A stretch of 64,000 nucleotides of DNA. It comes from Strix aluco (lineage: Eukaryota; Chordata; Aves; Strigiformes; Strigidae). Below the pieces are notes generated by a model. The model had not been told where the DNA came from. It did no database searches and saw only the letters and a list, made by a program, of their open reading frames with translations. The stretch spans positions 15,082,948-15,146,947 of the forward strand of contig NC_133948.1 in NCBI RefSeq assembly GCF_031877795.1, given 5' to 3'. Shown in pieces: positions 1 to 64,000 of the stretch; the stretch's first letter is position 1, and the number at the start of each line of letters is the position of its first letter. Both the position numbers and the translations under genes were made by a program.

Positions 1-564
1 CGGCCCCATTTGCTGCTGCAAGGACCAACACGCAGACGCCGGGGAAACATCAAGCTATAAAATTCATTTTCTTCTACTGATACCCAAGAGCCAGTGCTGA
101 TGTTCGCTGCCTTGGTGAGAGAACATGTGGGCTTATCAGGAGAGCCAAGATGCCTTTGCTGTCACCACCCGGAGCACAAGGTGCGGGTCCAGCCGGGCAG
201 CCTCTCTTGCACAGCGGCTGCGGCAGACTCAGGGCTTCTGTCGCACCAGTTTGGAGGTTGCTCTGCTCCCCACGATCCCCTGGGGCTCTCTTCCATCAGG
301 CAGGTGAAAGAAAACTCCCTGATCTATGAAACAAGGATCCTCCCAAGCCCAGCTCTACACACAGAGTGATCCTCCACGCCGAGGGCTGTTACACAAGAAA
401 TCTGTTGCTTGTTCTACGCTGATTATTTCAAGAGGGTGTTAAACCTTTATCACCGACATTTGCTTTGCCCAGAAGCTGTGCAGCTCACTCCGGGGGTCTG
501 CCACGAGCCCTGCAGCTCAGCACACATCACATGCTCAGCACCAGACAGGCTGACACCAACCCAC
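1..564 (-). other. THOC5: THOC5 intronic sequence at the left edge
   Basis: This stretch lies downstream (minus strand) of the last THOC5 exon in the window. The next expected exon, which should continue the coiled coil after the ELEQRKR segment, was not found in either direction. It is therefore read as intron running off the edge. No repeat or RNA gene is recognised in it. Confidence 0.6.
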
Positions 565-3500
565 CTCTTGCGCTGCTCCAGCTCCCAGTCCAGGCGGGCC
601 AGGGTCTGCTGGTGGGGCTCTGACAGGGTGATGGCAGGCCGGCTGATTTCAGGGGGGGCCTCTTTGTAAAACTCCTCCAGGCTCACCAGTTCGATCTCCT
701 CATGTTTTGATCTGCAAGGACAGACGGATCAGCCCAGGGAAGGGTGGGAAACGCTGCAGCAGGGCCAAACTCAACTGTGTCTCGCAGGAGAGTGGTCAAT
801 GCCAATCACAGAATCACAGAATCACTCAGGTTGGAAAAGCCCCTCGGGATCATCGAGTCCAACCCTCAGCCCGACTCTACAAAGTTCTCCCCTACCCCAC
901 ATCCCCCAACAGCTCATCTAAACGACCCTTAAACACACCCAGGGATGGGGACTCCACCCCCTCCCTGGGCAGCCTATTCCACTCTCTGACCACTCTTTCT
1001 CTGAAACATTTTTTCTTGATGTCCAGTCTGAACCTCCCCTGTTGCAGTTTAAAGCCATTCCCCGTGAGGAGAGACCAGCACCAACCTCTCTACACTCTGC
1101 TACACGAGGTACCACACTATCAGTGAGCTGAACCGCAGCGAGGAGAGAAGGGGCTGAACAGGGTCCCTCCTTTCACAGAGACACCTTCCCCACACAGCCC
1201 ACCAAAGCACCGTTAGAGGCACGAGTCTAAACACAGCCCTCCTGGCAGCAGCTCAGAGTGCTGCCCACGCAATGGGCATGACGAAAGGCTCAGCTTTTGG
1301 AAGAAAACTCCTGATATACAGAGGCCAGAGAGTCCTTGAAGAGTCCAGCATGGCTACATCTTTAACATTTACCTATTTCCTCCTCCACTGTTCCTCTACC
1401 ACAATAGAGGCCGCCTTCTCTCTTCCCTACACAAGCCTCTTCCCCCGTGACCCAGCACAAGAACTCTGGGACACTCCATCTCTCCTGTGTGGTGGCACCT
1501 GGCCTCCACCCCATCTCAGGCACACCATCGCTCCCTCTCCTCCCCGGCCAAACTCACTTGAACTCCAGGCATTTGGTGATCTCTTTCTGCAGGTGCATCA
1601 CCTCATAGAGCAAGTTCTGGAGCTGCAGGTGATACGCGTCGACCTTCTGCTTTGCCTGAAACACCGACACAGCTGGGGATGAAGCTCTGTGGCCTTCCTC
1701 CCAGCAAACACACCCCCGTAAGAGTCACCAACACACACCCCCCTCGCTGTTCCAGCTAGCGATGGCAGGTTTTAGGGTATGCAACAACTTTTGGGGGGTA
1801 AAAAGACATTTTCAAAGGCTGGGAAAGCAAACGCTCATTGTATCAAACTGATTGTGCTCTGGAGGCAGCATGTTTTGGGGACAAGGCACAGAACAGGGCA
1901 GACCTGTGGGGCACACAGAGTCTCCTCCTGTCCCTGTGCCTCAGTGGTACAAAGAAAACGAGCGTTGTTCACAAACTGTGAAAAGCTTCTCTGAGATGTC
2001 TCGGTAAGGAGATTCAGGGCCAACTATGTACACAGTTCTCAGGCTTGCAGCACACCAGACTCTCAAGACAGAGCTACTCCCCTCTGTATCTGAGGCAGAA
2101 GCAGACACCACTCCATCATTCATTATAATTACAGCTTCCACTTCATGGCAGTAGTTTCCTGATAAACCTCTAATTCAAAAAGTATGACCTGGCTGGTGTT
2201 TAATTCCTGTCACACATCCATACACAGACTGGGCAGAAACAGCACCATCTCTGATCCCACTAAATGCCAACTGGTACTTGCTGCCCCCCAGCCCCGCTGT
2301 ACCTCGTGGGTTTGATCTCTCCCTTTCTTCAGCCGAATATGAGCCAGCCGGTTGAGCTTCTTCAAGGTCATGAAGTGGACACAGCTCTGAATCCGCCGCT
2401 CGTCTATCTCCGAAGCCTGAGTGGCAGGAGAGAGGCATTTGAAGCAGAAGAGACGACTGACACCACAAAGCCCCTTTGCTGCAGGGACCTCCTGCGAGTT
2501 CTGTCACAAAGGGGACTCCGTGCTTCACTAAGGAGCCACAATTAATGTCACCGGGGCTTCCGAGGGAGCCTCCAGCTGCCAGACTCACAGGTCACCCACA
2601 GGAAATAACTTGGCGGGGGGAAGATGTTTTCCAGGCTCACTCTAGTGACCCTTCTCCCAGTAGGAACAGAGCACCCTGCCGTGCAGGCAACGGCACAGGC
2701 AGTCACAGCACAAGTCTTCCCCAGCCATGGCTGAGGCTGCTGGGCCTCCGTGGGACAGCAAGAGCCCAGTCACCCCCGTGGCAGTCAGGAGGGGCTCAAT
2801 TTCCCTGACTTGTCAGCACAACCTAGCAGGAGCCCAGACATGCTTTAGAAGAACTCCATCTGCTCAGTCAAAACCAATGCCTCAGCTAAATCATATTCTA
2901 CTTTATTTAAGGGAAGCTGCTCCATTTTCCTGATTCTCCCCAGAACAGCGCAACTGCTGCTCCCGTTCCTCTCAGATTAAGGGAAAACATCAAAGAACAG
3001 ACCACATTAAACCAAGCACCAACATTTTTCCTTACGTTGTCCTTGATGCCTCTGCTCTTCAGCTCCTGGATTTCTGCCATCAGCCTCTGAAGCTCCTGAC
3101 AAGTCTCTCTGTAGAGTTCGTAGTCTTTGATAGGGTCACGGAGATCCACCTCACACTCCTCACTGTAGTACCTAACATCCTGCAAAGGCAGAAAGCACCT
3201 TCTACAGCTGGATCCTTCCACCTTCTCTGGAAACAGCAGTGGGAAACAAACTGCTGGGTCTTGATTCCTGGCTTTGTCCATTAATCCCACACCCGAGGAG
3301 ACTTTACACACAGGAGAGGACTCAGTTAATCCCAGACCCAAACGCCACAAGGTATTAAAATGCCTGGGAAGTTCAGACTTTTATATAGTTTTGAAGAGTT
3401 TATAAATTTCAGCTAGTCTCGATCCTGCACCCATGACTACAGAGGATAAATTGGGAAGGTAATCACTTCTTCAACCCCTATCCCCACTTTGGCTGAACCC

Positions 3501-3932
3501 AGGTTACCCTGCTGCTTGTGAGAGTGTTTTAAGGTGACTTGCAAACCCCTGAGGGACCTTTCAGCCTTGTGCTCACTCTCCCTACATCTCCAGAGAAGGG
3601 TTTGACCCTTTGAGCACTGTGTTTCCCGAAGGAGATGGAAACAGGTTCAGAAATGCAGAGTGGGAGTTTCAGAGGCATTGGGAGCTGGCTCGGCTCTGGG
3701 GGTCTTGCAACTTCCCGAAGGGGAGAATAAGGCCAGCAGAGAGTGGGTGGGAGATGAGCCTTTTGCAAAGCAGGACACAAGTACCCTGCACAGCAGGCAG
3801 GCTCTGCCGGTGCCCGTGGGCAGCCAGGGGCCCTACCTGGTCGGCATCAGCCTTGCCCCGCTTGCCCTCCTGCGGGCCCCCATCCGTGCGGATCACTTTG
3901 GGTTTCCTCTTCTTGCTGGAGTCTGACGACAT
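565..3932 (-). CDS. THOC5: THO complex subunit 5 (THOC5), 5' part of the gene
   Basis: THOC5 is a subunit of the THO/TREX complex, which couples transcription and splicing to nuclear mRNA export. Five coding exons are visible on the minus strand, all with GT/AG borders and compatible phases: 3837-3932, 3036-3179, 2303-2416, 1558-1655 and 565-711. Together they encode about 200 residues, roughly the first 30% of the usual ~680-residue protein. The start [13 protein letters not shown] fits the family N-terminus with its basic nuclear-localisation stretch. Later exons give [51 protein letters not shown] and [14 protein letters not shown], the helical coiled-coil region. The start ATG (3932-3930) lies 18 bases inside its exon, whose acceptor AG is at 3952-3951. 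The gene ends in an incomplete codon at 565 and continues off the left edge. No frameshift is seen. Identification is very secure; the homology is from memory of the human protein. Confidence 0.96.
790..1130 (-). repeat. CR1 LINE fragment in a THOC5 intron
   Basis: The left end carries the short tandem cacagaat/cacagaatcact typical of the CR1 3' terminus. It is followed by the GGTTGGAAAAG, TCGAGTCCAACC, CCAGGGATGGGGACTCCACC and TTTAAAGCCATTCCCC blocks of the CR1 3' UTR in antisense order. The element is therefore inserted on the minus strand and truncated at its 5' end, as most CR1 copies are. CR1 does not leave a poly(A) tail. Its presence is a good pointer to a bird or other sauropsid. Confidence 0.88.
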
Positions 3933-3950
3933 GGTGCGGCCCGTCAAGGA

Positions 3951-4440
3951 CTGGGGGACAAGAGGCAAAGCCGTCGGCTGTGGGGAGCCAAACCTGCGGG
4001 GGATCGGGGCTATCCCGCGCTCCCTTCCGCCAGCCTGCCTCGGACTCCGGAGTCTCCCCGCCCACCCAGTCCCAGGCCTCCTCCCACCAGCTTCCTCCAG
4101 CCCCGCTCCCACCTCCCCCAGACCCCAACGTTGGCCTAGCGGCCTCCCCTCCTCCAAGCCCCCCCCCCAGACGGCCTCCGCTCCTCCGGAGCCCCCCAGA
4201 CCCCAGCGCACCGGGCCCGGGGCCGCCCCCTCCCGCCGCTCGGCCCCCACCGGGCCGCGGCGCCCCCCTCTCACCCTCAGCGCCGCCCGGAAGTGACGCG
4301 CGCGGAGCACAGAGAGGCGGGGCAGAGCGGCAGCCGCTGACGCGCCCCCTGGCGGATAGTCCTCCGGAGGACCGCGGGCAGGGGGCGTGGCTTCGGCGAA
4401 AGGGGCGTGGCCAGCGCCCCCACTGACAAGCCCTGGGCTG
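3951..4440 (-). promoter_or_regulatory. THOC5: THOC5 first non-coding exon and CpG-island promoter
   Basis: A GGTGAGAG donor on the minus strand (GT at 4274-4273) ends a 5' UTR exon starting upstream of 4275. Its intron reaches the acceptor at 3952-3951, just before the coding start. The exon contains CCGGAAGTGACG (4287-4298 on the plus strand), a classic ETS/GABP-type site followed by a TGACG half CRE, in dense CpG sequence. No TATA box is seen. This is a typical housekeeping promoter. The transcription start is not fixed by sequence; I infer it falls between about 4300 and 4400. Confidence 0.7.
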
Positions 4441-4680
4441 GGGACACAGTGGGGGGCCCTCGGCTGGGGGGGCCCCAGTGGCACTGGGGGTATCCATGGG
4501 CTTGGGGGAGGCATGGTGTGGGGTCTCCAATGGCGCTGGGGGCACCCCAGTGCATCAGGGCACCCATGGGTGCAGGGGGCACCCATGGCCCCCCTGGGTG
4601 AGAAAAGGTTGGGGGTTCGGGTCCCCATGCTGCGTGGGGGCAAGCACCCCCCGCCCCACCCCGTCCCCAAAGAGGGCAAG
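4441..4680. other. Short GC-rich spacer between THOC5 promoter and NIPSNAP1 3' end
   Basis: A G-rich, imperfectly repeated stretch with recurring CATGGG, CCAATGG and GGGGGCACCC words. No gene, RNA or interspersed repeat is recognised. Several open frames cross it because stop codons are rare in this composition. Confidence 0.5.
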
Positions 4681-5062
4681 GCCTTGGCATATTAAATATT
4701 TAATTGGCGATGTCCTGCAGTCAGGCTGGCTCCCAGGAAAGGCACCCAGGGGCCCATCAGGAATAATTAAGGACACCCCCCCCCCCCCCAATCTCTGCAG
4801 CCTGCCCAAGCCCCCCCGGGCAGCACCTGGGGACCCGCCGCAGGATGTGGGGCTCCCACCCTTCCCCTCCCCAGCCGCAAACCCTTCGCTGCTCTCATCC
4901 ACCCCAAAGCAGGGTGTGGGGGAAAGGAGAGCCAGGAGCTGTGAGGGAACAGAGACACCCCCCCACCAGCCCTTCCCCAGCAGGTCCGGGGTGCAGGCAG
5001 GGAATGCAGGCAGGGAGCGAGCCCCTCCGGGTGCAGGCAGACACCCCAGCGCAGAGCCCCGC
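4681..5062 (-). terminator. NIPSNAP1: NIPSNAP1 3' UTR and poly(A) signal
   Basis: The NIPSNAP1 stop codon ends at 5063. The first good poly(A) signal on the minus strand is ATTAAA at 4704-4699, inside an AT-rich patch that stands out from the GC-rich surroundings. This gives a 3' UTR of about 360-380 bases. The UTR includes a run of 14 C on the plus strand at 4776-4789 (14 G in the RNA). Confidence 0.65.
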
Positions 5063-7823
5063 TCACTGCAGGGGCGAGATCTTCAGGGGAATCATTATCC
5101 GTGACTCCATGGTCCGGATCAGCGGGACTGGAAAAGGAAACGAGAGACAGGTGAGGGCAGGGGGTCCCCAGCACGTGGGGGGTCCCCGGCGCAGGCAGGG
5201 GGTCCCGCTCACCCGTGTAGTACACATTCTCGTCCCAGCCCCTCTTCCTCCAGGCCGCGTTCCTCGTCTCCTCCCGGGACTGCAGGTCCTTGTAGGCTGT
5301 GGAGATGGGGTGGGACTGGCACCCAAGGACCCCCCCAGCACAGCCCCAATGTGGGGGTGCCCCGGGGGGGGGGGGGGGGGGACACAGGCAGCGGGGAGCC
5401 CGCTTACCCCAGAGGTGGTGCACGACATACAGCTCCCCGATCTGGGAGAAGAACCCGCCGACCGCCTCCTGGTTCTCCTGCCGGTACTTAATGGCCCGAG
5501 CCCTGGCACACAGCGGGAGAAACGTGGCGGAGGGGAATTGCCCAAGGGCCCCCCCCCAGCTCCATGGGGACCTTTTCCCACCTTGGCTACCCCTGTGCCA
5601 GGTAAACAGCCGCTTACCAGTTATTGCCCCATTCAATCATGGTCCCTGGCTGGAAGTAGAGGAGAAAAAAACCCAGAGTGAGCAGCCAGATCCTGCCTGC
5701 TCCCCCTGCTTGGGGTCTCCTCACCGAGGGAGGAATTTGGGGGGCTGCCCTCCGAAACATCAGGCAGGACCCCCTCCCCAGGGGTATATCGATCCGAAGG
5801 CCGCCCCAAGGCGTGGGCTGGCCCCCCATGGCCGCTCACCTTCAGCTTGTAGGTCCTCAGCTCGTAGATGTTGGGTCCCTGGCGGGGCAGGGGCTCGTTC
5901 CAGAAGCTGAACTCCAGGAGCAGCTGGTTCCTGCGGGACAGCAGCATGCGGCTCCTCTCCTTGCGGAAATCCAGGTACTCCTGGGGACAGCCCCAGCCAG
6001 GGGTTTCGAGGTGGGAGCGAGCACGACCCAAAGCCAGGGGGGGGTCAGGTAGAGGCGAGGGGCAGAGCTCGGGCAGCTCGCCCTGATCCCAGCGATACCT
6101 TATTCTGCTTGAGCTTGTTCATGCAGTCCATGAGGGCTGGGTACCCGCCCGAGAAGCGCCAGAGGTGCACTGGAAGGACAGCACAGGGCTGGGGAGGGAG
6201 GGCAGCTCCCACCCCTCTCCCCCTGCGTGACAGCCAGCCCCCAGCACAAGCCGAGGTCTTCACCTTCGCTCCGAGCCGCTCCGGCAGCGGGGGCACCGGG
6301 ATCTACTGCCTGCTCTCACCTGCCTGGTCCTGCTCGCCATACCACGTGTTCCAATTCCCCACCAGGTCACAGGGGTAGTCGGCATCTGAGTGGAGCTTGG
6401 GCAGCACCGCCTCTCTGCAGGGACACAGTGGGGGCAGATGGGAAGGGGGAAAGCACCCCAAAATACACCTGATACCCCCGTTTGCCCTCCCAGCTGAGTA
6501 TGAGGGGTCTGTGCATGGACGGGTCTGCCCTAACAGGACCCCGAACAGGACCCCGAGTCGCCCTGGGGGTGCACCCACTTCACAGGGAGGAAAACTGAGG
6601 CAAGGAGCAGGGGCACAGACCCACCCACGGTCTCACCGAACTCCACACAAGCCCCCCACACCCCCTTCGCTCCAGAGCAGCACCGCAACACCCCACTGGG
6701 ATGCCAAGCAGTGCTGCCTCCCAACACACAGCAGGGCTCACGTCAGGCTGTTGTAGGCATCCAGGCACTCCGGCTTCACGTTGTGGACTGCAGGGAGAGG
6801 AGAGAGGGGCTGCCAGGGACCTGGCGGCGGGGCCCAAGGCAGAGCAGCCAGGGGGTGCCCATGGGTGAGGAGGGGCCAGCACAGCGAGGTGCACCCTTGT
6901 CTGTGTTCACCCCCCAGCCCCACTCACACTGGATCTTGTAGAGGTTGCTGGTCTCCTTCTTGGAGAGGAGGTTGGAATGGGCGTCCTTGCGGGGATCCAC
7001 TTTGTGCACAAAGAGGGAGCGGAACCAGCTGCCCTCAGCATCCCTCGAGTACCCCCTGCGAGACAGCGGGTCAGCGCGGGGGGAGCACCCGCCAACACCC
7101 CCTTCGCTGGGGGAGCTCTGCCTGGGAACGACCGGCTGGAGGGCAAAATGGGAACCAAAGGCCACGCTGCTGATCCTGCCTTCCTGGCTCCGCAGGCAGC
7201 TGCCTGCACCGTCCGGCTGCTGGGGAGCAGCGTCCATCTCGGGGGGTTTCTCGGGGTTTCATTCAGTTCATCTCAAGGGGAGCCGAGGCACGGCAGCGCC
7301 CGGCTCGTTTTTTGTAGGGGTATGGAGGGAAAATGAAGGCCACAGGTCTCCCCACCCCAGCGGCGGGACGCGGGGGGCAGCCCCCACCAGCCCCCCAAGG
7401 GATCCCCCTCAGCCCCAGGAGCTGCTCCAGCCGGCGGGGATCCCCACGCGGGCTCGGGGGGCGGCGGGACCCTCCCCAGGGAGGCGCGGGATGGGCAGGG
7501 CCCCTCCGCCCCCGGGCCGCGCTGCTGGCCGGACCTTTGCCCCACCTGGTGAGGCATTAACAGCGGGGCCTCCGCCCGCCCGGCACCGCGCCAGGGCCCG
7601 GGGCCCGCCCGCCTTGAGCGGCCCCCACTAACGGGAACGCGGGGTCTGAGGGGACAACGGGCCTTGAGGAGGGGTATGAGGGGCGGGGGCCGAGCCGAGA
7701 GTAGCCGGGGACGGGGGGGGCCCGGACCAGCCCCGCTCACCGCGCTCCACCGGGGGCCCCGCCGCCGCCGCCCCGTCGCAGCCGCCGCAGCGCCGCGCTC
7801 CCGCTCGCCCGCGCCGCCGCCAT
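5063..7823 (-). CDS. NIPSNAP1: NipSnap homologue 1 (NIPSNAP1), mitochondrial protein
   Basis: NIPSNAP1 is a mitochondrial protein reported to act as a mitophagy 'eat-me' signal. Ten exons, all GT/AG and in phase, give a complete 279-residue protein (human about 284): 7741-7823, 6928-7055, 6742-6787, 6320-6414, 6099-6169, 5840-5980, 5618-5649, 5408-5502, 5213-5296 and 5063-5127. The first exon encodes an Arg/Ala-rich, acid-free leader ([19 protein letters not shown]), which fits a mitochondrial presequence. The rest has the tandem NIPSNAP (dimeric alpha-beta barrel) domains. Diagnostic segments include [84 protein letters not shown] and [13 protein letters not shown] at the C-terminus. The leader is poorly conserved, as is normal for presequences. 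The gene is tail-to-head with THOC5 and probably driven by the CpG island above 7824. Paralogue NIPSNAP2 is less likely given the synteny with NF2. Confidence 0.97.
5364..5381. repeat. Homopolymer of 18 G in NIPSNAP1 intron 8
   Basis: An uninterrupted run of 18 G on the plus strand, preceded by CCCC, between NIPSNAP1 exons 8 and 9. On the transcribed pre-mRNA this is poly(C). Runs of this type are unstable in replication and sequencing, so the exact length may be unreliable. Confidence 0.9.
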
Positions 7824-8180
7824 CTTCCCCCGCAGCGGGGCGGAGCCTAGCGGGGGCGTGGCTAGATAAACCCCGCCCCACCCCGCCCCCGCCCCCGGGG
7901 CGGAGCGCCCCGCCCTTCCCTCAGAAGCTGGCCTGGAGGAGGGTGATTCTGATTGGCCGCCGCGCCCCGCGGCCGGCCACACCCTCTCGCTCTGAGCCCC
8001 GCCCACTCGCCCCCACCCGCGGCCAGGGCGAGGCCTCATTGGCTGTCGGCGGGGAGGGCGGGGCCCCATCTGAGCTCTCGGCTGCCAGCAGCCAATCAGA
8101 AGAGCCGGCTGGAGAGGGCCGTGTTTGATTGGCCGCCGTGTCTTGCTCCGCCGCTCCCGACCCCCTGCCGGCCAGAGGGG
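7824..8180 (-). promoter_or_regulatory. NIPSNAP1: NIPSNAP1 CpG-island promoter with four CCAAT boxes
   Basis: Immediately upstream of the NIPSNAP1 start codon, the sequence is CpG-dense without a TATA box. It carries four NF-Y type CCAAT boxes within 181 bases: inverted (ATTGG on the plus strand) at 7952-7956, 8038-8042 and 8128-8132, and direct (CCAAT) at 8092-8096. GGGCGG/CCGCCC Sp1-type boxes lie among them. This looks like a strong housekeeping promoter. A short frame at 7921-7953 that could belong to the upstream PH-domain gene overlaps it (separate entry). Confidence 0.75.
7921..7953 (-). other. Possible C-terminal coding end of the PLEKHA4-like gene (speculative)
   Basis: On the minus strand this reads PIRITLLQASF followed by a TGA stop. 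As I remember it, human PLEKHA4 ends in PLRVTLLQSSF, so 8 of 11 residues would be identical at the stop. The reading lies downstream of, and on the same strand as, a PLEKHA4-like PH domain. Against it: no convincing exons bridge 9300 to 7953, no coiled-coil region is found, and the CCAATCAGA that encodes PIR is itself an NF-Y box of the NIPSNAP1 promoter. The match may be partly chance. Confidence 0.3.
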
Positions 8181-9300
8181 GCAGCCGCTGGTTGGTCGCC
8201 GCTCCGGGGGGGCGGGGATCCCTCGGGCTCCGCCCTAGGGGAGGCGGGGTCAGAGCGGGGCGGGGCCGCAGGGCCGCCGGGCGCTCGGGCGGGGCCGGGA
8301 CCCACCTGCTGCGGGAACAGCGGCGCCCACGGGCGGCCCCCGCCGCACCCCCCGCGTGTCCTCCGTCCCGCAGGGCCGCCCCCGGGCCGGGGCCTCCTCC
8401 TGGGGTGGGGGCGCCCGTGGTGAGTCCAGGGGCACCTGCTGATCTGTCCTGCTCCACGGCTTCCCCCTGCAGCCCCCCCGGCCCCATAACCCCCTCCCAC
8501 CCCACAGCCCCCCCAGCCTGACCCATAGCCCCTCCAGCCCCACAATCCCCGCAGTACCTGCCCCCTGCCCCCCATCTCTCCCCCCAGTACAAGTCCCAGG
8601 GGTGCCATGGTGCCAGCTGTGGGTCAGGGCACCCCATGGCCCCGTCGTCCTGCCCCAGCACCCACAGCCAGCGCTGGGCACAGCCCGGGGGACAGGGGGC
8701 AGGACAGGGCGAGGTCCCCAGTGCTGGGGGCTCACTGGAGGGGCTGGGAATTGGGGTCCCTGCAGAAGTTAGATCCCCCCAGGGTACGGTGTTAGGGGCC
8801 CCCTGCCCAGCCCTGGGGTGTTTGGGGTCCCCCAGGAACTGCTGTGGGAGTATTGGGACTCCCAGGATCACCCATGGTGGGGCATGGGGGTCCCCGGGGT
8901 ATGGGGGTGCCACCCTGGCCAGACCCCTCAGATGCTGTGGCACCCACCAGCACCGATGAGACACCCCAGCACCCATGGGACCCCAGGACAGAGGGTGTCA
9001 GAGGAGCTTAAGGGGCACCTGGGGTTAGGTGGGGGATTGGGGGTCCCCACTCCAACCACCCCCAGTCCCCAGATGTCACAGGATGGGGGGAAGGAGGTTG
9101 GTTTGGGGGTCACCCTGGGGGGGAAGGTTAGTTGAAGGGGTTGTCCCGCAGTGTCCCCCCAGGGAGCTCACCTTGCTGGGGGGCAGTGGAGGGACTGAGG
9201 GGCGGTGAGGACGGGGCATGGGGGTGCCCCCCAGCTCCTCACCCGGGGGGCACAGGGAGCACCAGCCGGGGGGGTGGGTGGGCAATGGGGGTGAGGGGGA
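8181..9300. other. GC-rich region between NIPSNAP1 promoter and PH-domain exons
   Basis: CpG-rich near 8200-8400, then C/G-rich sequence with long open frames that look like composition artefacts. Two splice-like segments on the minus strand could be small exons of the PH gene: a CAAG|GTGAGC donor near 9171-9166, and a stretch near 8760-8740 with an upstream acceptor (CTTCTGCAG) and a downstream GTGAGC. I cannot place either with confidence. Confidence 0.35.
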
Positions 9301-9306
9301 ACTCAC

Positions 9307-9327
9307 ACTTCGGGGTTCCTGGGGCAT
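9307..9327 (-). other. Possible small sixth exon of the PLEKHA4-like gene
   Basis: On the minus strand a pyrimidine-rich CTCCCTGCAG acceptor is followed by 21 bases and a consensus GTGAGT donor. Joined to the preceding GG phase it would encode GCPRNPEV and remain open. A donor two bases earlier (GTGTGA) is also possible. The exon is supported only by its splice sites. Confidence 0.35.
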
Positions 9328-9582
9328 CTGCAGGGAGAGGGAGTGGGGGGAGCTGGAAGGGGAGGGGGAGAAAACAGGTGTTAAAGGGTTAACTGCCCCC
9401 CAGGCACCCCCCCAAAACCCTCTGTGACCCCCCTTAAAGCCCCCAACCACCTCCCGCCCCCAGGACCCCCCAAACCTCCCCCAGCTTCCGCCCGCCCCCG
9501 CCCCAGGTCCCCATGCCCCTCCATGGACCCAGGGCCCCCTGTGGCCCCTGTGCCCCCCACTGCCCCCCGGTGCCCCACTCAC

Positions 9583-11474
9583 CCGGGCAGGGGTGATGCC
9601 CCCCGGCGCAGGGCGCAGACCCAGGCGTTCAGCTCCTCGGGGGTCTCGGCCCCCAGGCAGTACGTTCGCATCCCGGGGTGCTCGGCCTGGGGGTGGGGGG
9701 GCCATGGTGGAGAGGACCCAAGTGTCCAGGCCTTGTCCCCCCGACCCAGGGCACCCCCGGATCCAGGGACCCAGGGGGCCGGGACTGACCATGAAGAGGA
9801 ATTGGGGGGTGCGGGGGGCGGGGGGCAGGACACGGATCTCGTAGCCGGGCAGGGGGAGGCCGCCCCGCACTCGCTGCTCGCTGCTGTCTGGGGGGCAGAG
9901 GGGTCTCAGGGGAGGGGAACCCCCAGGAGCCCCATCGACACCCCAAGACCCCCAGTACCATTGGGAGGAAGCTGGGGACCTCCTCTGAGTCCCACTGGCT
10001 GCCCCCAAACCTTCTGGGGTCCCCCAGAACTCAGACCCCCCCCCAGTGACCCCTTCAGCCTCCCAGGGATCCCCAACTACCCCAGGGACTCCCGATCCCT
10101 CCGGGATCCCTGACCCCCCAGGGACTCCAGGTCACCCAAGTCCCCCCTCACCCCAGGGTCCCCGTGCACCCAGGTTGTCCTGCCCCCCCCCGGCCCCCCT
10201 CACCCCGGTAGTAGTAGAGGCAGAGATCGACCAGCACAAACCAGCGGCGCTTCCAGAGCCGCAGCCCTGAGCTGTCCTGGGGGACGGGGATGGGGGTGAG
10301 CCCCCCGCAGCTCATCATCCCCCCAGGACCCCCTGCTGCCCCAACCCTTTTGATCCCCCAAACCCCATAACCCCTCCAGCACCCCCTGCCATCTTAGTCC
10401 ACCCCCAACCCCATAACACCCCCACCACCCCCCACCAGCTCAGATCCCCCCAACCCTCTTCGATTCCCCAAAACCCATAACCCCCCCCCAGGACACTCCA
10501 ACACCCCAGACCCCCCCACTCTCTCTGATCCCCCATACCGACCCCACACACCTCCCACTCCAGACCCCTCACTCCAGCTCTCCCAAACCCTGTATGCCCC
10601 CCCCCGACACCCTCAAACCCCATAAACCCCGCAGCAGCCCTCACCACTCCAGACCCCCCCAAACCCCAGACCCCCCCCCACCTCAGACCCCCCCCAACCC
10701 CCATGCACCGCCCTGGTCTCCCCCCCCACCCCCCAGCCCCATGCCCCCCCCCCCGCCCCACCTGCTTGTGTAGCCAGCCCCGCAGGGCGGGGGGGGCGCG
10801 GGGGTCCCTGCGCAGCGCCTGCCCCCCCTTCCCGAAGGCGTGGACCCGCGGCACCGGCCGGCAGGGCTGAGCAGGGGCTTCAACCAGAGTGGGGGCTCCG
10901 AGGGGGGCCCCCCCGACCTCCCCCCCCGGGCTGCCAGAGTCCCTACCAACCCCCCCACCCCAATTCACCTGTACACCCCACAATGACCCCCCCTCAGCTC
11001 ACCAGGGCTCCCCTGGGCTCCCCATGCCCCCCCTTGTCCCCTTGTGCCCTATAGGTCCCCATAGACCCCTGGGGTCCCTTGGGCTCCCCCATACCCCGCC
11101 ATAGCTCCCAAGGCCCCCCCCCAGCCCCCCTGAGCTCCCTTGTGTCCTTCATGGCCCCCCTTGCCCTCCCATAGCTCCCCATACCCCCCCCCCCAGCCCC
11201 CATGGCCTCCACATAGCTCCCCATGACCCCCCCAGCCCTTGAGCCCCCCATGCCCCTCCCATAGCACCCCATACTGCTCCCAGCCCCCATAGCTCCCCAT
11301 GCCTCCCCGACGCCCTTGGGCCTCCATGCCCCCCCAAATGCCCCCCCCAGCCCCCCCCTACCCCTCCACACCCCCCCCCATGCCCCCCACCCTCCCCATG
11401 CCCACCTGGGTGCCCGGGCCGCGGGTGCCAGCAGGGGTGAGGGCGCAGCGGGGGGGCTCGTCGCCGTCTGCCAT
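9583..11474 (-). CDS. PEPP-family PH-domain protein, PLEKHA4-like (3' end unresolved)
   Basis: PEPP proteins (PLEKHA4-7) use an N-terminal PH domain to bind phosphoinositides at membranes. Five minus-strand exons with GT/AG borders and matching phases encode about 150 residues: 11406-11474, 10762-10866, 10204-10276, 9790-9887 and 9583-9686. The start ATG (11474-11472) follows an acceptor at 11483-11482, so a non-coding exon may lie upstream. Residues 31-50 (HAFGKGGQALRRDP) match the conserved pre-PH segment. The PH domain runs about 51-145: RGWLHKQDSSGLRLWKRRWF carries the basic K-x-W-K-R-R lipid-binding pattern, then DLCLYYYR, AEHPGMRTY, and helix EELNAWVCAL with the invariant Trp at 137. 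Wording is closest to PLEKHA4. After residue 149 the codon GG is split by a GTGAGT donor. Read through, the protein would stop at once with PLPG. A possible next exon is 9307-9327. The family's coiled coils were not found. Human PLEKHA4 lies on chromosome 19, so this position is unexpected. Confidence 0.82.
10320..10730. repeat. C-rich low-complexity intron of the PLEKHA4-like gene
   Basis: Plus-strand sequence consists largely of CCCC-A/T words, with recurring CCCCATAAC, CCCCAAACCC and AGACCCCCCC. Few C residues occur on the opposite strand. On the transcribed (minus-sense) RNA this is a run of G tracts able to form G-quadruplexes. Diverged tandem duplication is likely, but no exact unit was defined. 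Confidence 0.7.
10985..11400. repeat. Degenerate tandem repeat, CCCATAGCTCCCCAT words
   Basis: The words CATAGCTCCC, CCCATGCCCC and CCCAGCCCCC recur at short spacing between the first two PH-gene exons. The array is imperfect. Open frames on both strands through it (for example repeated GGHGELWG-like peptides) are products of the repeat rather than genes. Confidence 0.7.
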
Positions 11475-11689
11475 GGGGGTCCTGCAGGAACAGGGCGGGG
11501 GGGGGGGCATCAATGTCCCCATTGTCCCCGCGGGGACAGAGGACCCGTTCTTCCCGCTGCGGGGGCGCTCGGGCCGCTGGGGCCGGCGGGGCGGGGGCTG
11601 CTCCCCGGCCAGCTGGGGGGGGCCGGGGGGGTTTCTCGCCTCCCGCTGGTCCCCCTCCCCCGCCTGCTCCTGCCGTCCCTTGCCCCGTG

Positions 11690-12375
11690 CTGGTCCCAGT
11701 TTCCCTTCAGTAACACTGAGCTGGTCCCAGTTCCCATCCCGTTATGCCAGTGCTGGTCACTGTTCCGTTATCCCGTTATCCCAGTGCTGGTCCCAGTCCC
11801 AACCTGTCGTCCTGGTGCTGGTCCCAGTCCCTGTCCCATTATCCCAATGCTGGTCCCAGTCCCATCCTGTTATCCCAGTACTGGTCCCAGTTCCGGTCCC
11901 GTTATCCCAGTGCTGGTCCCAGTCCCATCCCGTTATCCCCACGCTGACCTGGGTCCCAGTCCTGTCCTCTTACCCTGGTGCTGGTCCCAGTCTCCATCCC
12001 ATCATCCCAGTGCCGGTCCCCATCCCCCTGTCCCAGCTCCATTATCGCTGGTTCTGCTCCCAGTCCCGTCCCATTACCCAGCGCTAGTTCCAGTCCCAGT
12101 TCCAATCCCAGTCCCATATCGCCATCCCAGTGCTGGTCCCGGCCCCCCCGGTCCCAGTCCTGTTACCTGGGTCCCAGTTCCATCCCGCTATCCCAGCACT
12201 GGTCCCAGTGCCGTTGTCCCAGCGCTGGTCCCAGTGCCGTTGTCGCAGTACTGGTCCCAGTGCCGTTGTCCCAGTGCTGGTCCCAGTGCCGTTGTCGCAG
12301 TACTGGTCCCAGTGTCGTTGTCCCAGTGCTGGTCCCAGTCCCGTTGTCCCGGTACTGGTCCCAGTGCCGTTGTCC
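11690..12375. repeat. Minisatellite, 26 to ~32 bp units, upstream of NF2
   Basis: More than twenty tandem units are built on the core CCCAGTGCTGGTCCCAGT. The right part (about 12195-12375) is a regular 26-bp unit with CCGTTGTC spacers, alternating between CAGTGCTGG and CAGTACTGG versions. The left part has longer units with CCGTTATC or CCTGTTATC spacers. Open frames of several hundred codons cross it in every direction because the unit lacks stops; they are not genes. Confidence 0.9.
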
Positions 12376-12780
12376 CGCTCTCCCCGTGCCGGTCCCGCCC
12401 CGGGCGCTGGTCCCAGTCTCCGCCACCACCCGCCCCGGGGCCGGGACTGGGCAGCGCCCGCCGGGGGCGGGACGAGCCCCGACGCCCGGGTCCCCCCGGG
12501 ACCGCCTGGGTCCCCCCCCCACGGGCACCCCGCCACGGCCCCGCGGGAGCCCGGGAGGGCACTGCCGCGGGGGGGCAGCACCCGCGTCCCCGCGTCCCCC
12601 GGGGACAGCCCGTCCTGCGGGACACCCCTCGGACGGCGGACACCCCCGGGACCGGGGACACCCCCGGACCGCGGACACCCCCCGGGCCGGGGACACCCGC
12701 GGCGCGGCGGGGCAGCCCAGCCCCGGCAGCGTGGGAGGGTCCCGGGGCGTTCGGCCCCTGCCGGGTCCTAGTGCCCGCCC
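12376..12780. other. GC-rich spacer before the NF2 promoter
   Basis: Very GC-rich CpG-island sequence with repeated GGGACACCCC and CGGACACCCC words at about 12600-12710, a further degenerate short tandem array. No gene or RNA is recognised. It may contain the start of the minus-strand PLEKHA4-like transcript, but no specific signal fixes this. Confidence 0.45.
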
Positions 12781-60777
<47,997 letters not shown>

Positions 60778-62145
60778 GAAGCGACCAGCCGCTCCGCACC
60801 GCTGCTGCCTGCCGGCCGGCCCCCCCACCAGCCGGAGCCTCCCCCCAGGACCGGTGTGCCCCAACCAGGGTTGGGGAGCCGGGCATCACCCCCCGGCCCC
60901 CCCTGGCTGCTGCCAGCCCCTGCACACCGATGGACTCGGGGCCCGGCTGCCCACGGACTGTGTGATGTTCTCTAGCTTAGTGTCCATTCATCCTCCTCCC
61001 TGCCCCTCTTTTTGTTTTTTTCCAGCCTTTTTCTTATTTTTCTAGCGTAGTTTTTTGGCTCAGCCCTCCAGGCTTTCCCCCAGTGCCAGGGTCGGGGCTG
61101 CGGCCGTGCCCCCCAGCCTGGCCACCAGCGGAGGAGCATGCCAAAGGGTCTCCCCTGGCCGGGGTGCCGTCCCTGTCCTGCCGGGCGCTGAGCTGGGTGC
61201 CAGCAGTGCTGGCAGTGCCGGGAGCCCCATTAGGCACCCAGAGCATGTCCTAGTAGAGTGCTGTAAATCAGGGGCCGTCGCGCCGGCTCTCCCCGCGCCC
61301 GGCAGCGGTGGGAGGCAGGCGGGCAGGGAGCGGGATCGCAGCGGCTGCAGGGACCTCGGGCTGCGGGACCTCGGGCTGCTGCTTCTCTGGGGAGAGGAGG
61401 CAGGGGCAGGGCGTGGGGAGGAAGGTTTCATCCTCCTCCTCCTCTCTGGTAAGGAGCAGGAGAACAGCTAGTGCCAACCAAATGAAACCTTTTTTTTTTT
61501 TTCCTGCAAACTGTGACAAACCTGGGCAGCTTGAGGCCGGGGAGGGGGTCTCTGGGGGCTCAGGGCTGGGCTTTTGCTGCGTGCCCAGGTCCAGCACCCC
61601 TGAACACGATGTGGGGCCCCCCCAGCTCCTCCCTGGGCTCTGTGTCCTGGCAGGCGAGCGCTGGGGCTGCCTGCTCCTGCCTGTCCTTAACCAGGTGCCT
61701 TTGCTCACAGCTCCGACCCCCTGGCCACGGCCACGGGGGAACGGGGATGCCCTGACCTTTCCTTCGTGTCTCCGTCCCAAATCCTGCCCTCCGCTCGGGG
61801 GGAAACCTCCCTCCGAGCTGCGATTTACCCTTTAACAGAGCCGGTGCTGCCCTGGGCATCCCCAACATCCTCTCGGGACCCCCAATTCCTCCCTCCCACA
61901 ACCTCAGCTGACCTACAGCCACACCAGAGTCGGTCGGAGGGTCAGCCCGGAGCTTGGTGTGTAGTAGATCATGTCCTGAACCCTTTTAATTTAAAACCGG
62001 CGCTGCCTCGGATCGACACCCCGCACATGGCTGCGATTCGCGTGGCTGTGGCCTGGCACAGCCGCTTTCCCGTTCCCCTGGACTGTTGTACTCAGAAGAA
62101 ATAACGGTTTTCTCGTTTGTTTTAATAAAAATTCAAAGCACTAAG
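60778..62145 (+). terminator. NF2: NF2 3' UTR and proximal poly(A) site
   Basis: From the stop codon to AATAAA at 62124-62129, followed after about 30 bases by a TGTTTGG-TCTTTTTTTTT GU/U-rich downstream element. The UTR is about 1.37 kb. It is GC-rich at first and AT-rich at the end. A T13-type run sits near 61490-61502. Confidence 0.8.
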
Positions 62146-62486
62146 AGGGGGAGCTGGGACTTGTTTGGTCTTTTTTTTTGGGGGGGGGAAAAACCTCATG
62201 AAGCCTTTCACTGCTGCAGTTGATGCCGGGGGGAGGTTTTAATTGGAAGCACGGCTGCGGCCCTGGGATCCCTCCGGCAGCTCCCTGCGGGGCCAGGATG
62301 GGACCCCCCCTGCCCCCCATCACTCCGGGGGTCCCACTGTCCCCCGTCCCTCAGGGCTCCTCCATCCCCGCTTGCACCAGGGTGCCCTTTCCCCTCCTGG
62401 GGTTTGGGGTACCCAGGGGGGGTGTGAGCCCCGTGTTTGCCATCCCTGGGGCTCTGCCCGATGCTGCCTGATCTTGGCCTGCCTGG

Positions 62487-62496
62487 AATAAATAAA
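62487..62496 (+). terminator. Second poly(A) signal (AATAAATAAA) downstream of NF2
   Basis: Two overlapping AATAAA hexamers 360 bases after the first NF2 signal, followed by AT-rich sequence with T runs. It may serve a longer NF2 3' UTR. There is no sign of another gene ending here. Confidence 0.5.
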
Positions 62497-62539
62497 TGAT
62501 ACGCTGCATTGACCTCAATTTTTTAATTAATTATGGATA

Positions 62540-64000
62540 AAACCCCTTTGGTGACGCAGGGACCCAGCTGAGCTGCCGGCCCCAAGATGGGGCGGCCAGT
62601 GGGGCTTCACCAAAACACCGTCTGTGCCGAACGCCCCAGGGCTGGGCAACACCCGACCCTGGGGGGCTGCTCCTGGCCCCCCCGGGACTTGATGCACTCA
62701 GTGATGGATGCGCTTGTTTATCTGTTCACCGGCAGCAAAACCCCAGGAGATGAAGCAGAGCTCCTGGTGAGGGCTCATCCTCGGGCGCCGGCGGGTGGGC
62801 TGGGGGGGATTTGGGTGGGTTTTCCTCTTTTTTGTTGTTTTAAGCAGGGCTGATGGAAGTGGGATGGTTTTTTTTTTTGGCAAAGGGATGCCGATGGGGG
62901 AATGGGGGAGATTTTGGGGCTGCTGGGAGGCAGCAGGCGAGGGAAGCGGAGGGTGACCTGATTTCCCACGCGTGGGGCGGGAGCGCTGCCCGCAGCCACC
63001 GGTGTCAATAATGCAGCTGGTGCGCTGCCTGCGCTGCCTGCGCTGCCTGTGGGGCACAGGCAGAGCCTCCAGCCGGGGGATTCGGCCCTAAAGCGAAGTC
63101 GAAAGGACTTTTCCCAGCCCAGGCCGTGATGCCGGGGCAGCAGCGCAGGGGGGATGCGCTGGGTGCAGCCAGTGCCGGGTCCAGCGCGGGGGGTGTCCTT
63201 GTCCCCTCCAAGGTGGGGGGTCCCGCAGGGGCCGTGCACACCCGCAGCCTCCCGCGCTCCCAGCTTTGCGTGCTCAGGGCCTCACACGCTCACAGCCTCA
63301 CACTTGCAGCCTCACACACCGGCAGCCTCGCAGACGCGCAGCCCCGGCCCTGCAGCGGGCAGCCCGGTGTTGGCTCCCTGCCTGCCCTCCTGCCCTGCAG
63401 GCTGGGCCATTTCTCTGCTTTCAAAGGAAACTTCATTCCGATTTTTTCCTTTTTAGCAAAATTAAATTCATCAGAGCCGAGGTGGTGGCGGAGCGGGTGT
63501 GGGTTGGCTTGGGATGACTTTGCCCAAGGGAAAAAAACTCATCAAACACCATTTCCCAAGTACCTCTCCCAACGCCTTCCTCCTCCATGGATTCCTTGGG
63601 AAGGAAATTGGGGGGATTTTGCTGACCCAAGGCAGCAACTGAGCATTTTGGCAGCAGTTCTCCACGCACTTGAACGCTGGAGGTGGCTTTGAGACTGTCT
63701 TGGGGACAGGCTGGTACCCAGTGCCCGGGTAAAGGCGATTTGTTGCTCACATGAGTGTCCCTGTCCCCAAATCCTCCTCAAATCACATTATTTCACTTTC
63801 AAACCATTAAATATTCTCAAAAAAAAAAAAAAAAAAGAAACACCAAGAAGCTGGGACTGTGAGCAGGACAGCACCTGTGGACATAGGGGTCACCGCTGCC
63901 ACGGGGTGGAGGGGACACAGGGTGGCCAGTGGGTGTCTAGGCCAGGGCCAGGAGCCCTGGGGGGGTGTCAGGGTGCTGGTTCAGTGCCCATCCAAAATGT
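62540..64000. other. Region downstream of NF2, no gene recognised
   Basis: The human neighbour CABP7 is not found here and probably lies off the right edge. The region holds three perfect copies of a 9-base GCGCTGCCT unit (63022-63048), a degenerate CAGCCTCACAC array (about 63240-63340) and a poly(A) run at 63819-63836. Confidence 0.6.
63806..63836 (+). repeat. Poly(A) tract preceded by ATTAAA
   Basis: ATTAAA (63806-63811) is followed after seven bases by 18 A and then GAAA. It could be the tail of a retroposed sequence, although CR1 elements do not make such tails, or a simple A-rich repeat. The sequence to its left matches nothing I recognise. Confidence 0.45.

Follow-up and report, generated by a model that had tools for sequence, protein, structure and literature searches.

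Based on the analysis of a 64-kb stretch of DNA (the window), we consider it probable that the five-exon gene on its minus strand at 11474-9583, between NIPSNAP1 and NF2, is the neognath ortholog of PLEKHA4, and that it has moved at the DNA level together with its introns and been shortened to a small PH protein. According to the model that we propose, a PLEKHA4 segment with its introns would have left its original dot chromosome and been inserted between the divergent genes NIPSNAP1 and NF2, with the shortening occurring after, or through, the move. The product is most likely small and would consist of a phosphoinositide-binding PH domain joined through a short linker to the ~11 residues that ended the original protein. 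Without the coiled coil, which serves oligomerisation, and the PGXPP motif, which serves KLHL12 capture, this protein would have a membrane location but would not build KLHL12-sequestering clusters. We infer the DNA-level move, the neognath identity of the host, expression of the gene, lipid binding by its product and the loss of its Wnt role.

PLEKHA4 was reported as lost in all birds (PMC8983885, 2022), and a study of avian dot chromosomes (PMC12954441, 2026), which asks whether relocation saves genes, reports that in Neognathae it was transferred from chr31 to chr15. The preliminary description of this DNA had proposed, among other readings, a bird 'missing' gene at a new locus. This idea is right, as the PH domain matches PLEKHA4 best and neognath PLEKHA4 is, independently, assigned to chr15 in PMC12954441, where the relocation is already published; the anatomy of the shortened gene is the addition made here. 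Among the papers found on PLEKHA4 in birds, none is by title or abstract about the structure of the gene, and a shortening of the moved PLEKHA4 was not found in the consulted parts of the main text of PMC12954441.

The five minus-strand exons were previously described as having correct splice sites and phases, and they do: all four introns are GT-AG, the donor phases (0, 0, 1, 0 and 2) are compatible, and the joined exons 1-5 give a stop-free reading frame of 449 nt with a translation of 150 residues. Putative exon 1 (11406..11474; start codon plus 23 residues) has an upstream AG acceptor and a GTGGGC donor in phase 0. Because its splice sites fit but no homology was found between it and the human PLEKHA4 N-terminus, this exon and its start codon are tentative. 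Exon 2 (10762..10866; GT-AG, phase 0), which matches PLEKHA4 and reads ...RVHAFGKGGQALRRDP...RGWLHKQ, starts the PH domain; the core of the domain lies in exon 3 (10204..10276; DSSGLRLWKRRWFVLVDLCLYYYR), where 20 of 25 residues are identical to PLEKHA4 over 10279-10205. Exon 4 (9790..9887; phase 1 in, phase 0 out) covers the middle of the domain and also matches PLEKHA4, while exon 5 (9583..9686; AEHPGMRTY...NAWVCALRRGASPLPG) contains the end of the domain and has the phase-2 donor GTGAGT. The PEPP-type motifs picked out earlier, i.e. RGWLHKQDSS, LRLWKRRWFVL, AEHPGMRTY and a late Trp, are all present in the translation. A processed retrocopy is rejected because the introns, four in number, have been kept. 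The interval originally assigned to the gene, 9583..11481, locates these exons properly but is too short, since a further piece of PLEKHA4 lies at 7956-7921. Between the two, a tentative exon 6 (9307..9352, minus strand) is a candidate by splice-site scores only, with an alternative acceptor before 9327 and an alternative donor at 9242; with the weight matrices used, the acceptors score 5.0 and 7.1 and the donors 4.4 and 2.8, and clear homology of this candidate was not found. Because it would rest on such matrices with several candidate sites, a splice-score gene model for 9583-7956 was not adopted.

The relatedness of the PH domain was addressed in several ways. The exon 1-5 product matches Pfam PF00169 (PH) with an E value of 3e-14, the best relative of the domain among solved structures is 1UPQ of human PLEKHA4/PEPP1 (140.7 bits, E 2.7e-40), and local alignment with the PH query gave best scores of 115 and 99, whereas 30 shuffles reached 58 at most; on these grounds, a chance match is rejected for the PH exons. 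The other paralogues in the solved-structure search are PLEKHA7 (124.8 bits), PLEKHA5 (114.3 bits) and PLEKHA6 (112.1 bits), and because the top seven of the 34 PDB matches are PLEKHA4/5/6/7, the domain is of the PEPP type. Identity is 66/107 with PLEKHA4, 55/95 with PLEKHA7, 49/107 with PLEKHA5 and 48/107 with PLEKHA6. Likewise, six residue states are exclusive to the domain and PLEKHA4, while PLEKHA5, PLEKHA6 and PLEKHA7 each have three of this kind. The domain retains the core PH residues, its basic stretch HKQDSSGLRLWKRRW is the same as in PLEKHA4, and the solved relatives, which are up to 62% identical, suggest the fold of the domain. Searches of genome-contig and viral-contig collections found no relatives of the gene, as expected for a vertebrate gene.

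A PEPP tree had been proposed in the preliminary description. In ours, which has five sequences only, the domain is joined to PLEKHA4, but with a support of 90/90 that is below the tree tool's 95/80 star. The branch of the domain is long (0.59), and the path to PLEKHA7 (0.84) is shorter than that to PLEKHA4 (0.94), because the branch of PLEKHA7 itself is short. Given this long branch, the support below the star and the nearer PLEKHA7 path, sequence alone is not decisive on orthology.

The further piece of PLEKHA4 is its extreme C-terminus, PIRITLLQASF followed by a stop codon, at 7921..7956 on the minus strand, where it forms the end of the open frame 8997-7924. This tail is colinear with the PH exons and on the same strand. 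The match has a score of 47, while the next best place in the six frames of the whole window has a score of 27; none of 100 shuffles reached the score of the tail, and the maximum in a separate set of 30 shuffles was 30. Human PLEKHA4 presumably ends in PLRVTLLQSSF; this query was first used after the frame 8997-7924 had been read, and its choice may thus not be independent of that frame. The tail and coiled-coil queries are both human PLEKHA4 sequence, and among the PEPP paralogues the tail comparison covered PLEKHA4 alone. The human query protein agrees in length with the published 779 residues, and its PH part is the same as 1UPQ over the aligned stretch. The stop codon of the tail is 97 nt ahead of the NIPSNAP1 ATG, and the CpG-rich stretch around this stop is probably the NIPSNAP1 promoter. 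Within the last codons of the PLEKHA4-like gene (7956-7921), CCAATCAGA resembles what we take to be a CCAAT box. With this CCAAT-like element in a CpG-rich region, the coding tail and the NIPSNAP1 promoter (ATG at 7823) may overlap.

The flanking genes are those that had been named, NIPSNAP1 and NF2. In tblastn with human NIPSNAP1, this gene is the downstream neighbour on the same strand (5066..7823, minus strand; ATG at 7823), with exon 1 from 7823 to 7741 and exon 2 beginning at 7055. In tblastn with human NF2, the divergent neighbour is NF2 (13173..60774, plus strand); its exon matches are mostly 79-97% identical, and the few lower values come from alignments that ran past the end of an exon or from the last exon (60.7%). 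An open frame at 4691-3672 on the minus strand reads like what we assume to be the start of THOC5. We also take NIPSNAP1 and NF2 to be on chicken chr15; if so, the destination is that of neognath PLEKHA4. The absence of anything comparable between NIPSNAP1 and NF2 in human, also claimed beforehand, agrees with a deletion in human 22q12 of one patient, which spans NIPSNAP1 completely and NF2 in part; besides NF2, this deletion is described as holding only THOC5 and NIPSNAP1, and thus no gene of such a kind is listed in the human interval (PMC9456353). Elsewhere in the window, RNA genes were rejected as none reached the Rfam gathering score, and an ARAGORN tRNA call at 60311-60403 on the minus strand, which has a four-letter anticodon and no Rfam match at this score, is probably spurious. 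At 820-822 on the minus strand, ATTCTGTGATTCTGTG resembles what is presumably the 3' end of a sauropsid CR1 element; together with the published clade of the move, this is consistent with a neognath bird as host.

Unlike the PH domain and the tail, the coiled coil is very probably no longer present in the assembled sequence. On the gene's strand at 7850-13100, the coiled-coil query was not found (score 46, maximum 48 in 30 shuffles); on the other strand of this interval its score was 41 (maximum 50 in 30 shuffles), and the best match in tblastn of the whole window, which has an E value of 0.016 and lies at 52.9 kb in the plus orientation, is not convincing. When coiled coils were simulated as split into exons of 25-50 residues, without indels, and a score >48 was counted as detection, 182/200 were detected at 30% identity, 195/200 at 35% and 200/200 at identities of at least 40%. 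Similarly, there is no PGXPP motif in the three minus-strand frames of 9700-7900, where the sole regex match crosses a stop codon, or, by reading, in the 150-residue translation of exons 1-5. When human PLEKHA4 beyond the PH domain was scanned as 61 overlapping windows, six had scores that no more than 5 of 100 shuffles attained, with ~3 expected by chance, and the tail alone stands clear; the middle matches PPVSPQHW (8741) and TANEASPW (8055) were left out of account, given that 61 windows were scanned and that they are reached by 3 and 4 of 100 shuffles, respectively. The earlier suggestion of a PH-only derivative is largely right in that the coiled coil was not found, but the extreme C-terminus is still present.

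An alternative explanation for the missing middle is that the bird gene is full-length and that its GC-rich middle exons, at ~9.5-8.0 kb, were lost by assembly collapse. Sequences of this type are said to evade standard sequencing (PMC12954441), the GC content of 7921-12450 is 70%, and a GC-rich assembly could drop sequence leaving no Ns. However, the window is indeed without Ns, the PH exons and the tail are in place in it, as are both neighbours, NIPSNAP1 and NF2, and 9582-7960 is without TRF arrays and therefore not of the most collapse-prone array kind. We regard such a loss as unlikely. We also judge it improbable that the locus is a decaying pseudogene, in which the PH exons are open by happenstance and no working protein is expressed. 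This possibility would be in accordance with the coiled coil not being found, with the long branch of the PH domain and with the lack of AATAAA/ATTAAA on the gene's strand from 9582 until 4704, past the coding end of NIPSNAP1. Nevertheless, no damage is seen in the four homologous exons, in their splice sites or in the tail and its stop codon, and the core PH residues are kept, all of which argues against decay.

The arrangement of the locus also raises the idea of read-through, in which the PH exons skip the tail and are spliced in frame into NIPSNAP1 exon 2, resulting in a PH-NIPSNAP1 fusion without NIPSNAP1 exon 1. Exon 5 has a phase-2 end, as does NIPSNAP1 exon 1, so that a splice from 9583 to 7055 reads in frame; the two genes are on the same strand, with 97 nt from one coding region to the next, and among 13 poly(A) hexamers sought on the minus strand at 9580-4600, only AATGAA (7263) and ATTAAA (4704) are present. 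On the other hand, the phases would agree by chance in 1/3 of cases, A/T-rich hexamers are rare by chance in DNA with 70% GC, and the kept tail and stop codon suggest that the gene uses its own 3' end. We consider this fusion very unlikely, and attach just as little weight to the combined version, in which the moved gene is a small PH protein, no longer the PLEKHA4 adaptor, with transcripts that, having no evident poly(A) site ahead of NIPSNAP1, are also spliced in frame into NIPSNAP1 exon 2. If true, NIPSNAP1 exon 1, which presumably carries the mitochondrial targeting signal, would be swapped for a membrane-lipid-binding domain, and the landing site would have given rise to a novel fusion protein specific to birds. 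Finally, it had also been suggested that the gene is a lineage-specific duplicate; in this reading, PLEKHA4 or another PEPP gene would have been copied and the original would still exist elsewhere. PLEKHA7 is indeed nearly as similar over the PH domain (55/95) and nearer by path length, but PLEKHA4 is best in score, identity and grouping and PMC12954441 calls the event a relocation, from chr31; a duplicate is therefore not favoured and appears highly improbable.

The introns had been described as C-rich tandem sequence. This is correct for introns 1-3, which are C-rich on the plus strand and contain arrays, whereas intron 4 is neither so skewed nor repetitive. On the coding strand, the G skew is 0.55, 0.69 and 0.30 in introns 1-3 (i.e. 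G-rich) and -0.11 in intron 4; introns 1-4 contain 11, 8, 3 and 0 G-quadruplex motifs, and their TRF coverage is 58.3%, 10.9%, 19.9% and 0%, respectively. The imperfect tandem arrays identified by TRF form a cluster in introns 1-3 and the upstream flank (10062..12418), in which they cover 1063/2357 bases; the best stretch of the same size elsewhere in the window (outside 9500-12710, in steps of 100) has 170 bases in arrays. Coverage of the upstream flank at 11475-12450 is 64.9%, and elsewhere it is 0.4% in NF2, 2.9% in NIPSNAP1, 1.3% in 1-4700 and 5.3% in 60775-64000. In the interval that separates the PLEKHA4-like gene from the promoter region of NF2, a 26-base unit is present in ~7 copies with a 90% match at 12191-12376. 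The intron repeats were either brought in with the moved DNA or have arisen anew at the landing site.

The moved and shortened PLEKHA4 ortholog that we favor can be compared with human PLEKHA4/PEPP1 (779 aa), with which it has the PH domain and the extreme C-terminus in common. Further parts of the human protein are its coiled coil, its long disordered regions and its KLHL12-binding PGXPP motif; of these, the coiled coil and PGXPP were not found here. PLEKHA4 is reported to localize to the plasma membrane via PI(4,5)P2 recognition, to form oligomers through the coiled coil and the disordered regions, and to sequester KLHL12, with the PGXPP motif being conserved in PLEKHA4; in mammals, the clusters that sequester KLHL12 support Wnt signalling. 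Because the PH domain is kept while the coiled coil and PGXPP were not found, the small bird form is expected to bind membranes without sequestering KLHL12. What survived the move seems to be a remnant that binds membranes.

The neognath PLEKHA4 on chr15 described in PMC12954441 is the same gene and, if the host is a neognath bird, comes from the same clade. However, the main text of PMC12954441 has two mentions of PLEKHA4, without the neighbours, domain content or introns given here. The repeats resemble the intron 'stuttering' on dot chromosomes (PMC12954441) in that imperfect tandem blocks are present in introns and flank while the homologous exons are spared. They differ from it in that there are no exon-derived copies here and that the locus, if the placement on chr15 is right, is off the dot chromosomes. 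In blastn-short searches, the best exon-derived copy has 28.2 bits and is outside the neighbouring introns, and the best in a neighbouring intron has 26.3 bits; with a cut-off of 42.1 bits for exon stuttering in PMC12954441, exon stuttering is rejected. With stuttering-like repeats apparently off a dot chromosome, beside NF2 introns with almost none, the locus represents a natural test of whether intron stuttering is a property of dot chromosomes or is carried along by the DNA.

Relocation from dot chromosomes has a counterpart in bird IRF9, a dot-chromosome ohnolog that has moved to unrelated chromosomes (PMC12220609, 2025), as we suggest for PLEKHA4. IRF9 is described at six non-canonical positions, each in one order, and the moved genes are treated as true IRF9 orthologs (PMC12220609). 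Shortening of IRF9 was not found in the consulted part of PMC12220609, whereas the PLEKHA4-like gene described here looks shortened. Many conserved genes have apparently been lost in birds. If the anatomy of this locus holds, PLEKHA4 represents a move that saved only part of a gene, and its presence by BLAST would then hide the loss of the parts that make it a Wnt adaptor.
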